Source of the DNA: Melanopsichium pennsylvanicum
Taxonomy: Eukaryota; Basidiomycota; Ustilaginomycetes; Ustilaginales
Direction of reading: 5' to 3'
Length of the DNA: 64,000 nucleotides
Assembly (NCBI GenBank): GCA_900208305.1
Contig: OAPG01000012.1
Location: 124,001-188,000, forward strand
Shown here: positions 20,110 to 23,894 of the stretch, one piece after another
How the letters are laid out: every line of letters starts with the position of its first letter
How positions within the stretch are numbered: position 1 is the stretch's first letter
Translations under genes and position numbers: made by a program
The notes under the pieces: model-generated
What the model was told of the DNA's origin: nothing
Databases searched by the model: none
What the model saw: the letters and a program-made list of their open reading frames with translations, nothing else

Positions 20110-20946
20110 ATGGCAGCAACATCTCGTCCCTCCGTTCTTGCCACGCCCCGTAAACCATTCGGTTCAGTCAAACCATCCAATGCCGAGATGCGAAAGGTGT
20201 ATAACGACTTGGATAACAATGCCGTCTTTGACTTTTCAAGCATCGTATCCGCGGTTAAGACCTTTTCGACACGTTTTCGTGCCTACACCGAGAATGCCAT
20301 CTCCAACATCAACGATGACAAGGCAGAATACGATTCCAACCGCATGGAACACCGCAATCAGCTCAGGACGCTTGACCGCGAGATCGAGGATGCCAAAGCC
20401 AGCCAGGGTGAGCTTTGGCACACCATCGCGCAGGAGCGAGAGCAGGATGCCAACCTTAGGGCGAGACAGCAGGCACTTCAGGCACAAAAGGCGTCAGTCA
20501 CACAAAGATGCAACGAGCTGCAGGCAGAGATCGCTGAGCTCAGGCAGAACCTGGAGAACAAGAAGCTGGCCAAAGAGTCGCAACGAGAAAAGTTGAAGCA
20601 ACAGATCGACAAGAATGGACCCGAGTTGCGTTTGTTGGAAGCTAAGACCGGCTGTTCTGTCGTGCCAACCAAGGTGGGTGACCAGCTCAAGTTCAGCTTC
20701 AACTTGATGAACGCCAACGACTGGTCGCAGGAATGCCATTTCACCATCGACGTCAGCTCGAGCAAATACAAGATCACATCAGTATTGCCACACCTCGAAG
20801 CTGGCCTGCAAGAATCTCTGCTTCAAGAGCTCAACTCTACCCGCAAGTTTTACACTTTTGTCAAGAAGATGCGCGCCGCCTTGCGTGCTCAGGTCGAAAA
20901 GGAGCGTCTCGAGGTCCGTGATGCGGCTCGTCGCGGAGGCCGTTGA
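20110..20946 (+). CDS. SPC25: Kinetochore protein Spc25 (Ndc80 complex)
   Basis: Subunit of the Ndc80 complex that links kinetochores to microtubules. It pairs with Spc24 through its globular end. The 278-residue single exon has a short N-terminus, a long coiled coil at residues about 85-185 (heptads with REIEDAKAS, ELQAEIAELRQNLENKK) and a C-terminal RWD-like fold. There CHFTIDVSSSKYKITS and ELNSTRKFYTFVKKMR match the Spc25 signature (FxFxIDVSS-xYxVxxxxP; ELNxTxxFxxFxxxMR). Length is close to other fungal Spc25 proteins (220-280). The start at 20110 follows CACA, a good context. Confidence 0.9.
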   Translation: MAATSRPSVLATPRKPFGSVKPSNAEMRKVYNDLDNNAVFDFSSIVSAVKTFSTRFRAYTENAISNINDDKAEYDSNRMEHRNQLRTLDREIEDAKASQGELWHTIAQEREQDANLRARQQALQAQKASVTQRCNELQAEIAELRQNLENKKLAKESQREKLKQQIDKNGPELRLLEAKTGCSVVPTKVGDQLKFSFNLMNANDWSQECHFTIDVSSSKYKITSVLPHLEAGLQESLLQELNSTRKFYTFVKKMRAALRAQVEKERLEVRDAARRGGR

Positions 20947-21527
20947 GCGCTCCAGCTCTCTTTCCTTGCCTCATCTCATTCTGTTTCTGACCCTTTCTTT
21001 TGATACCTCTCGCTCTGTATTTGTACCTTTTTTGAGCCTGATCATGCTTTCATTCCGCAATATATTTGGCGAATTCACGCTTCGCCTGTGCATTATCCTT
21101 ATTCTACATGGCTTGTAGAAGCCAGCAACATGCACAAAGTCTGATGCTCCCTTCATGGTGGCAGTCTCGTTCCGTGCTGTCAGCATCGGCTTTCCCTTGA
21201 TGTTGAAGCATTCGATTCTTCATTCTTCGACTCATGCGGTCATGGCCTTGGCATCCTGTATCAACGTGAATAGAAATTTTGGACCCTTTTTTGTATCCAC
21301 AAATTTGATTTTTCTTTCCGAGTCCACATCCGAAAAAAGGGGACTGATATCGCCTTTTTCGACTCGATGACATGATGTTTCTGATCCATCAACTTCAGAC
21401 ATCATAAAGACACGGATTCGTCAACTGATGCGCAGGCAACCGGCTTGGCATCTGACTACATCGCTGACGGCTAGATCCGAGCAACAACACAGGTGCTCGA
21501 AACTTGAGCTATCATCATCTACCAACC
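20947..21527. other. Intergenic between SPC25 and the tRNase Z-TPK gene
   Basis: 581 bp, no gene seen. Contains the SPC25 3' end and the promoter of the downstream fusion gene. Confidence 0.45.
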
Positions 21528-23894
21528 ATGGTGGCACCACGTATGTCGATCAAGTTCTTAGGCACTTCGTCCATGCCAAACTCGTCCAGGAACTACTCTT
21601 CCCTACTTTTCAAGCTGGACAATCATACTGTAATGGTCGACTGCGGCGAGGGCACTCAGCGTCAGTTCCGCTCTCGATATGTTGGCGTGGACGAACGCCT
21701 TGCTAATCTCAAAACCATTTTGATCACGCATCTCCATGCCGACCACGTGCTTGGCCTCGTGCCATTACTCATGTCCATGATGGGTCCATCAGGCGGTTCT
21801 GCTCCGACAGAGAGCATAGCGCCCCGTGTCGAAATCTATGGCCCGCCTGGTCTGCGAGCGCTAATACGCACCACCCTTTCCTTGTGTTACTCGCAATTGA
21901 GCGGCAAGTATGTCGTGCACGAGTTCGTATGGCCATCCAACGAGCAGCTTACAGGCGACGCGCCTTATGCATTGAAAGACCAATCCGAACGCACAGTACC
22001 GAATCTGCCGTTGCATGACGGTGAGGCGAGCACAGGTCGTGATCTCGACATGGATCCAAGGTCCTCCAGCTGGCCCAATTTTCTCTCTTTCAAGACCTCA
22101 AACCAGGGTCCAAGCGTTCGTATCAGTGCAGCTCCTATTTCACATCGATGCCCAACACTCGCCTATGTGTTCGAAGAGGATGCAAGAGCATCGCCTCTCG
22201 ACCCCAGCATTGCTGAGGCACTCAATCGCAACGGACCAGCTCTGCTCGAACAAAGGGGCATTCGACACCCTCTCTCGCTTCTCTCTACTCTTACCACAGA
22301 GCGTCACTCAATCCATCTTCCCGACGGCACCGTTCTCAGTCCTCCCAAGTTAAATGTGCCAGGTCGCAAAGTCACTGTCATGGGAGACACAAGTGATGGC
22401 ACCGGTGGCTTCTCAGAAGCGCAACTTCACGCCGGCTGCGGTCTCCCAGCGCTTGCGTACGGATCCGACGTCTTGATTCACGAGAGCACCAACATTGCCC
22501 TTCCATCGCACCTTAACAAGAACGGCAAAGCTGACTCGCTAGAAGAAGTTGCAGCAAAAGCAAAACTGCGGGGCCACTCTGTTCCTCAAGTAGCCGGCCG
22601 ATTCGCTGCGTTGGTCAATGCAAAGCGTTTGATCCTCAACCACTTTTCCACAAAATACCCCAGCCCGCCGCACTATCTGCTCGACACAGCAGGGACCAAT
22701 GTCGAGTCAGCTCAGAATCAACAGCCAGCGCAAGCTCGACAACTTGGAGATCCAGAGAAAAAGGCTTTGATCATGAAAGAGTTCGAGCTGCAGGCACACC
22801 ACGCGTGGCAACAAGCGACTGAAAGCGTCACAGGGCTCGAAACATACTCGGCTTTCGATGGCTTTCACTTCGAAGTGCCACCTCGTCCGGAGAAGATCGA
22901 AGGAATACCGGCGAGTGAAGATGGCAATGTGTTCGCTAGGCCGTGGGAGCAAGCCTCGCCGTCTGCGGACAATGGAAACAGCCTCAAACGAAAACATAAG
23001 GAGTCTGAATCATCGATAGCCGGTAGGGAGCTATTATGGGATCCATCACCCTTGCTCCTACCGTCATCGCGCGATGATGTGCACAAGTACGCTATGGTGC
23101 TGCTAAATTGCCCTCTTGATGACCGTCAGATCGGACACTTTCGTCACTTGTGGGAGTCGGCGTCGCTCCGTTTGTGTGCTGACGGTGCGGCGAATCGCCT
23201 GCTCGACACGTTCGGTCTCGCAGCATTCGAGGGTCAGAACGGCGGGCCTTCGGTGGCTCTGCCCGACGCGATCCTAGGAGACCTTGACTCGATACGATCG
23301 GACACGCAAAGATTCTTCGAATCAAAGGGTGTCGCAGTTCATGACAGACCTTCTCAGTACGCTACTGACCTCCAGAAGACGATTCAAGAAGTGGAAGATC
23401 GAGAAGAAGGCGCTGGAGATGGTAAAGAGAATACATTGATCATTTTTGGCGGTCTCTCCGGTCGCTTGGACCAGAGCGTGCATACATTACACGTGCTATG
23501 GCAGCTCGCACCTGGAACGGAAGATCTGGGTAGCGTCACGGACCCAGAGAACCCAGACGAGCGAGGCAATAGGCTCAGGAAGCGACAGCGCACATTTGCG
23601 ATCGGAGAGGGTAGTGTAGCGTGGCTACTACCAAAAGGTAAACACACGCTCAAGATGTCACGCCAAGTCATGGGCAAGAGTTGTGGCATATTACCTCTGG
23701 GCGTAGGGAACAGCGGTGCAAAGGTGACGACAAAGGGATTGGAATGGAATTTGGAAGGAGACAGGACGACTTTGGGCGGTTTTTTGTCGACGTCGAATCA
23801 TGTGTACGACAAGGAGGGCGTGGTCGAGGTGGAGAACGATGAGCCTGTGTACTGGACTGTTGAGCTGCGTCCTGATGCCGAATGCAGCTTGTGA
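21528..23894 (+). CDS. tRNase Z (ELAC1-type) fused to thiamine pyrophosphokinase
   Basis: One uninterrupted frame of 788 residues with two enzymes. Residues 1 to about 420 are a tRNase Z, which cuts 3' trailers from precursor tRNAs: IKFLGTSSMPNSSRN, DCGEGTQRQ, metal motif THLHADH (H68, H70, D72, H73), ISHRCPTLAYVFE, VMGDTSDG, LIHEST, KLRGHSVPQVAG, LILNHFSTKY. After a polar linker of about 95 residues, 518-788 is a thiamine pyrophosphokinase, which makes thiamine diphosphate from thiamine and ATP: CADGAANRLLD, DAILGDLDS (580-588), QYATDLQK, FGGLSGRLDQ, GKSCGILPLG, GLEWNL, GGFLSTSN. All key residues of both halves look intact. The ATG at 21528 (CAACCATGG) is preferred. The two activities are normally separate proteins. 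Confidence 0.92.
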   Translation: MVAPRMSIKFLGTSSMPNSSRNYSSLLFKLDNHTVMVDCGEGTQRQFRSRYVGVDERLANLKTILITHLHADHVLGLVPLLMSMMGPSGGSAPTESIAPRVEIYGPPGLRALIRTTLSLCYSQLSGKYVVHEFVWPSNEQLTGDAPYALKDQSERTVPNLPLHDGEASTGRDLDMDPRSSSWPNFLSFKTSNQGPSVRISAAPISHRCPTLAYVFEEDARASPLDPSIAEALNRNGPALLEQRGIRHPLSLLSTLTTERHSIHLPDGTVLSPPKLNVPGRKVTVMGDTSDGTGGFSEAQLHAGCGLPALAYGSDVLIHESTNIALPSHLNKNGKADSLEEVAAKAKLRGHSVPQVAGRFAALVNAKRLILNHFSTKYPSPPHYLLDTAGTNVESAQNQQPAQARQLGDPEKKALIMKEFELQAHHAWQQATESVTGLETYSAFDGFHFEVPPRPEKIEGIPASEDGNVFARPWEQASPSADNGNSLKRKHKESESSIAGRELLWDPSPLLLPSSRDDVHKYAMVLLNCPLDDRQIGHFRHLWESASLRLCADGAANRLLDTFGLAAFEGQNGGPSVALPDAILGDLDSIRSDTQRFFESKGVAVHDRPSQYATDLQKTIQEVEDREEGAGDGKENTLIIFGGLSGRLDQSVHTLHVLWQLAPGTEDLGSVTDPENPDERGNRLRKRQRTFAIGEGSVAWLLPKGKHTLKMSRQVMGKSCGILPLGVGNSGAKVTTKGLEWNLEGDRTTLGGFLSTSNHVYDKEGVVEVENDEPVYWTVELRPDAECSL

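Follow-up and report, generated by a model that had tools for sequence, protein, structure and literature searches.

Tandem short-form tRNase Z and thiamine pyrophosphokinase in a single open reading frame of Melanopsichium pennsylvanicum and other smut fungi

Does a single gene of the smut fungus Melanopsichium pennsylvanicum encode both a tRNA-processing nuclease and an enzyme of vitamin B1 metabolism, and what might such a union mean? The question is raised by an open reading frame (ORF) in a 64,000-nucleotide stretch of contig OAPG01000012.1 (assembly GCA_900208305.1, positions 124,001 to 188,000 of the forward strand), hereafter the window. A first-pass annotation, made from the letters alone, had described a complete tRNase Z followed by a complete thiamine pyrophosphokinase (TPK) in one intronless frame of 788 codons. 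The frame, Pfam matches, motifs and relatives analyzed here confirmed this description, and all the motifs it had named were found in the protein.

The open frame and its two halves

The ORF begins at an ATG at 21528, embedded in CTACCAACCATGG, and continues on the forward strand without an internal stop to a TGA at 23892-23894; an upstream in-frame stop is located at 21465. Given the base composition of the ORF itself, the expected number of in-frame stops is 32, and the probability of finding none was approximately 6e-15. The other two forward frames over the ORF contained 22 and 29 stops. Because ten relatives (780–925 amino acids, aa) were co-linear with 99–100% of the protein at 77–81% identity, chance or misassembly is very unlikely. 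Since the frame is open and conserved, we infer that the ORF is transcribed as a single mRNA.

An assembly artefact or a gene-model merge of two neighbouring genes, repeated in different records, could give a similar picture, and merge-like models of the same short-form tRNase Z with a neighbour do exist elsewhere (P0036 and P0044, described below). However, the frame is open without an intron in the raw DNA, and the identical order was observed in 20 further proteins from several sources. An artefact is therefore extremely improbable.

Pfam and NCBIfam placed the front half in the metallo-beta-lactamase/RNase Z group, with Lactamase_B_2 matched at residues 33–137. The front half is predicted to have the tRNase Z fold, and its best match among solved structures was human ELAC1 (3zwf). 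The HxHxDH motif and the HR, GD and HFS metal motifs of tRNase Z are present and aligned with those of ELAC1. One metallo-beta-lactamase domain (residues 1–454) was found in the protein, which identifies the short form, tRNase Z(S), and not the long form (Trz1/ELAC2) with its two metallo-beta-lactamase halves. Human ELAC1 stands alone, whereas the window protein has longer loops and a TPK fused at its C-terminus. According to the main text of a survey of fungal tRNase Z (PMC2942849), fungal short forms are 376–554 aa long and vary in their flexible arm.

The back half matched TPK_catalytic at residues 538–660 (98.3 bits, cut-off 30.7), TPK_B1_binding at residues 705–774 (54.2 bits, cut-off 22) and TIGR01378 (97.4 bits, cut-off 76.4), in each case above the curated cut-off (PF04263, PF04265 and TIGR01378). 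Its best match among solved structures was human TPK1 (9hjc). The conserved aspartates and thiamine-site residues are present (CADG, GDLDS, Q..TD, GRxDQ, W and STSN), with roles that we presume for the single residues. Passages of PMC2515308 report four conserved metal-binding aspartates in TPK and dimeric enzymes in yeast and Candida. Human and mouse TPK1 and the Candida and yeast enzymes (PDB 9hjc, 1ig3, 2hh9 and 1ig0) stand alone, whereas TPK forms the C-terminal half here. In fission yeast Tnr3, TPK is joined to a Nudix-type domain. Tnr3 and the window protein are both fungal fusions of TPK with another enzyme domain, but the partner differs; no Nudix domain was reported beside TPK in the window protein (Pfam, E up to 0.001).

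Table 1. Positions of the fused gene and its features in the window.
Feature	Position	Strand	Basis
Fused tRNase Z(S)-TPK gene, 788 codons + TGA, intronless	21528..23894	+	Open frame, co-linear relatives
Short-form (ELAC1-type) tRNase Z domain, residues 1-457	21528..22898	+	Pfam, motifs, fold
HLHADH metal-binding motif, residues 68-73	21729..21746	+	Aligned with HLHGDH of ELAC1
Internal ATG (M416), start of TPK-only model P0089	22773..22775	+	Met in 20/21 fused proteins
Linker, residues 458-501, fast-evolving	22899..23030	+	Segment identity
Disordered linker core, residues 476-497	22953-23018	+	pLDDT (predicted local distance difference test) <50
KRKH basic stretch in linker	22986..22997	+	KRK in 15/21 fused proteins
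TPK domain, residues 502-788	23031..23891	+	Pfam, NCBIfam, motifs
GDLDS motif of TPK, residues 584-588	23277..23291	+	Motif alignment

Distribution and origin of the fusion

The whole-protein database search returned 86 proteins, and the TPK homologue set consisted of the best 120 of 221 listed. Both halves were detected by motif in 21 of 269 collected proteins, the window protein included. Every checked motif, and hence the whole tRNase Z set, is present in 15 of the 21. The N-terminus is missing in P0014, P0016 and P0018, the C-terminus is missing in P0019 and P0020, both of which keep the tRNase Z motifs, and P0021 is garbled. This last record is assigned to the plant Cichorium endivia and likely represents smut contamination. 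Fusions were assigned to nine species: Sporisorium reilianum, S. graminicola, Ustilago nuda, U. loliicola, Pseudozyma hubeiensis, P. flocculosa, Testicularia cyperi, Thecaphora frezii and Violaceomyces palustris. A taxonomy look-up placed Testicularia (Ustilaginales), Thecaphora (Urocystidales) and Violaceomyces (Violaceomycetales) in Ustilaginomycetes, to which we take the remaining six species to belong. The nine carriers are thus Ustilaginomycetes of three orders.

The S. reilianum record P0003, 81% identical over 100% of the window protein, carries the name 'related to Ribonuclease Z / related to thiamin pyrophosphokinase 1'. It represents the same fusion, and the double name is the annotator's only. 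Searches of the open-licence PMC literature aimed at a tRNase Z-TPK fusion found no published description, and the main text of the survey PMC2942849 does not contain 'maydis', 'ustilagin', 'thiamin', 'fusion' or 'pyrophosphokinase'. Nor did these searches turn up the three-order distribution, the separation of the enzymes in sister classes, the detection of just one TPK in this genome or the revised linker length.

In the sister classes, both enzymes occur as separate proteins in eight species of Malassezia/Exobasidiomycetes among the matches listed: Malassezia sp. CBS 17886, M. vespertilionis, M. pachydermatis, Tilletiaria anomala, Parajaminaea phylloscopi, Sympodiomycopsis kandeliae, Tilletia horrida and Exobasidium rhododendri. 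The class of M. vespertilionis and Tilletiaria was taken from a taxonomy look-up. The two proteins are listed on differently sized contigs in seven of the eight species, the assembly of M. pachydermatis being not known. The locus prefixes of the T. horrida pair denote two different assemblies, so this pair is uninformative on gene separation; the Exobasidium pair is on contigs of equal size, with locus numbers approximately 500 apart, and the Tilletiaria TPK record is partial. The unfused tRNase Z(S) proteins of Malassezia, Tilletia, Exobasidium and further Exobasidiomycetes (P0022-P0047) are the nearest relatives of the N-terminal half, with 38–52% identity. They end at about the same C-terminal position as the fused half and lack TPK, which is a separate protein there.

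Quick trees were built for each half. The outgroups were P0022-P0049 and P0210-P0236 for tRNase Z, and P0091-P0163 of at least 230 aa for TPK. P0021 was left out of both trees, the short P0016 and P0019 were left out of the tRNase Z and TPK trees, respectively, and the merged model P0036 was also omitted. One change explained the fused rows in each tree, with a support of 97 in the tRNase Z tree, where 19 of 73 rows were fused. Because the fused rows nested with Malassezia and Exobasidiomycetes rows in both trees (support 100 for tRNase Z and 99 for TPK), both halves look native. As far as these data go, the halves look to have been joined once.

On comparing 12 full-length relatives with the window protein (P0021 and shorter models left out), identities were 61–85% for tRNase Z, 60–83% for TPK and 18–52% for the linker. 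The similar constraint on each half and the retained motifs suggest that both halves are in use, and the fusion looks old and intact. We also considered the tRNase Z half as a pseudogene and rejected this, because its motifs are retained and its rate is like that of the TPK half.

The linker itself had been estimated at about 95 residues, a length that was not borne out. Similarity to unfused tRNase Z(S) reaches approximately residue 453 and similarity to stand-alone TPK begins at approximately W504, so that the linker comprises about 44 residues; its length among fused proteins is 32–56 residues. The predicted model fell below a pLDDT of 50 solely in the linker core. The KRKH stretch is, we presume from its pattern, a putative nuclear localisation signal. 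KRK is absent from the linker in P0012, P0015 and P0017-P0020, and P0020 has a different basic stretch.

Other joined or mislabelled models were observed among the homologues. Five Malassezia proteins with TPK only (P0091-P0094 and P0118; 222–298 aa) are labelled 'ribonuclease Z' in public records, a label probably carried over from the smut fusion. In P0041 (Malassezia sp. CBS 17886) and P0044 (M. vespertilionis), a tubulin-binding cofactor A domain precedes a short tRNase Z. In P0044 the tRNase Z fold lacks its beginning, suggesting a gene-model merge of neighbours, while P0041 is complete there and may be a second fusion. P0036 (T. horrida, 1216 aa) joins a family 47 mannosidase to a short tRNase Z and is likely a merged gene model, because a stand-alone T. 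horrida form (P0027) exists. In P0204, TPK is joined to a partial response-regulator receiver domain, and in P0167 to a weak Trp-repressor-like match below the cut-off.

Other copies and TPK-only models

The first-pass annotation had also asked whether the genome holds another TPK or a long-form tRNase Z. The genome (21.1 Mb, 61 contigs) was examined by a six-frame, intron-blind profile search. PF04263 and PF04265 each matched this ORF only (E up to 1), leaving the fusion ORF as the sole TPK detected. A long-form tRNase Z is present at a separate locus (G000:C9:717807-720731) as a 1206-residue open frame with an N-terminal PF13691 domain and HIHADH in its C-terminal half. A whole-protein search of the genome for a second short-form tRNase Z returned the fusion ORF only. 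PF12706 matched nine places, namely the fusion ORF, the long form and seven others. Thi4, thiamine-phosphate synthase and a Vms1-type domain (PF18826) were all matched in the genome.

The database model of the window gene itself, P0089 (373 aa, 100% identical), covers the TPK end only and begins in frame at M416. The locus could accordingly yield a TPK-only form beside the full-length protein, through an internal promoter or an internal AUG (M416 or M523). M416 is conserved among the fused proteins (Table 1) and has A at −3, and both −3 and +4 are G at M523. Against this, M416 sits within a predicted helix (residues 408–430) of the tRNase Z half, its position is also Met in four of ten unfused relatives and is Ile in Testicularia, and M523 is Met in just 13 of the 21 fused proteins. 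A start at 416 would leave a remnant of tRNase Z, which looks like a gene-model error. No N-terminal companion model for P0089 was found among proteins of approximately 251–800 aa (best 120 of 1480). Overall, an additional TPK-only product has a small chance of being real.

In the surroundings of the gene, an upstream ORF (20110-20946, +) matched the Spc25 kinetochore family. No thiamine riboswitch or other known RNA was found near the gene (Rfam, gathering threshold, window). The sole Rfam match in the window was a tRNA gene at 2889-2980 (−); at 92 bases against a 71-position model, it may contain an intron or have an extended variable arm.

Possible function of the fused protein

We consider it likely that the locus encodes a housekeeping protein with two functions, which arose through a single end-to-end fusion and whose halves each work alone. 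This reading draws on the architecture, the motifs in place, the predicted folds, the distribution, the single-group trees and the one detectable TPK. A native short-form tRNase Z gene would have been joined end to end with a native TPK gene early in Ustilaginomycetes, before the split of Ustilaginales, Urocystidales and Violaceomycetales, and a separate TPK would not have been retained. Each half would fold and function independently, tethered by the flexible linker. The C-terminal half, the one TPK detected in the genome, would convert thiamine and ATP to thiamine diphosphate. The N-terminal half would act as an ELAC1-type zinc phosphodiesterase, trimming or repairing the 3' ends of tRNAs, with bulk pre-tRNA 3' processing left to the separate long form. 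The fusion would set 1:1 expression and a common location, and direct chemical coupling would be unnecessary.

Several points weigh against this reading. The front half scored below the cut-offs of the NCBIfam RNase Z models TIGR02651 (135.9 vs 292.95 bits) and NF000801 (132.1 vs 252 bits), both set for bacterial/archaeal annotation. The single change in the TPK tree (19 fused of 81 rows) had a support of only 80, and both trees used SH-aLRT (Shimodaira–Hasegawa-like approximate likelihood ratio test) only, a midpoint root and no bootstrap. Violaceomyces is represented by one model, which ends ahead of the thiamine-binding part. A second TPK could have escaped the six-frame search if it is highly diverged or split into small pieces. 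P0089 may leave room for a separate TPK isoform, and P0090 (250 aa) is a second TPK-only row, 80% identical to the window TPK; these two are the TPK-only rows with at least 80% identity among the best 120 of 221 listed. P0090 looks frame-shifted, since unrelated letters precede its TPK part. Finally, the two enzyme activities, an ELAC1-like role in repair, the lack of coupling and the single mRNA are inferences.

The first-pass interpretation is supported in part: of the options it offered, co-expression of two housekeeping enzymes is the one favoured here, while functional coupling is unproven. With coupling, binding of thiamine, thiamine diphosphate or AMP at TPK would tune tRNase Z, or the reverse; in a variant, a shared address would target both halves to one compartment. 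Either way, tRNA repair would follow the vitamin B1 state. Retention of the fusion across three orders, with no clear re-splitting among the matches listed, and of the KRK stretch in most linkers is consistent with coupling. However, the linker is fast-evolving, variable in length and disordered at its core, and KRK is absent in six of the 21 proteins. Retention alone is accounted for by the single detected TPK copy together with the essentiality of TPK in yeasts reported in passages of PMC2515308. Coupling is therefore unlikely. We hold as similarly doubtful a functional tether in Ustilaginomycetes, in which the single, probably essential B1 enzyme would carry a tRNA-repair (ELAC1-type) nuclease.

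Two housekeeping enzymes of unrelated pathways appear as one protein across three smut orders, and the fusion is a candidate marker for the class Ustilaginomycetes. It also offers a natural case for testing whether fusions retained over long periods necessarily imply shared function. The naming of Malassezia TPKs as 'ribonuclease Z', likely spill-over from the fusion, is a warning for annotation. If the activities were coupled, vitamin B1 metabolism would be linked to tRNA quality control. If the tether were real, recycling of tRNAs from stalled ribosomes would be tied to thiamine diphosphate supply, through shared expression and location or through ligand cross-talk.
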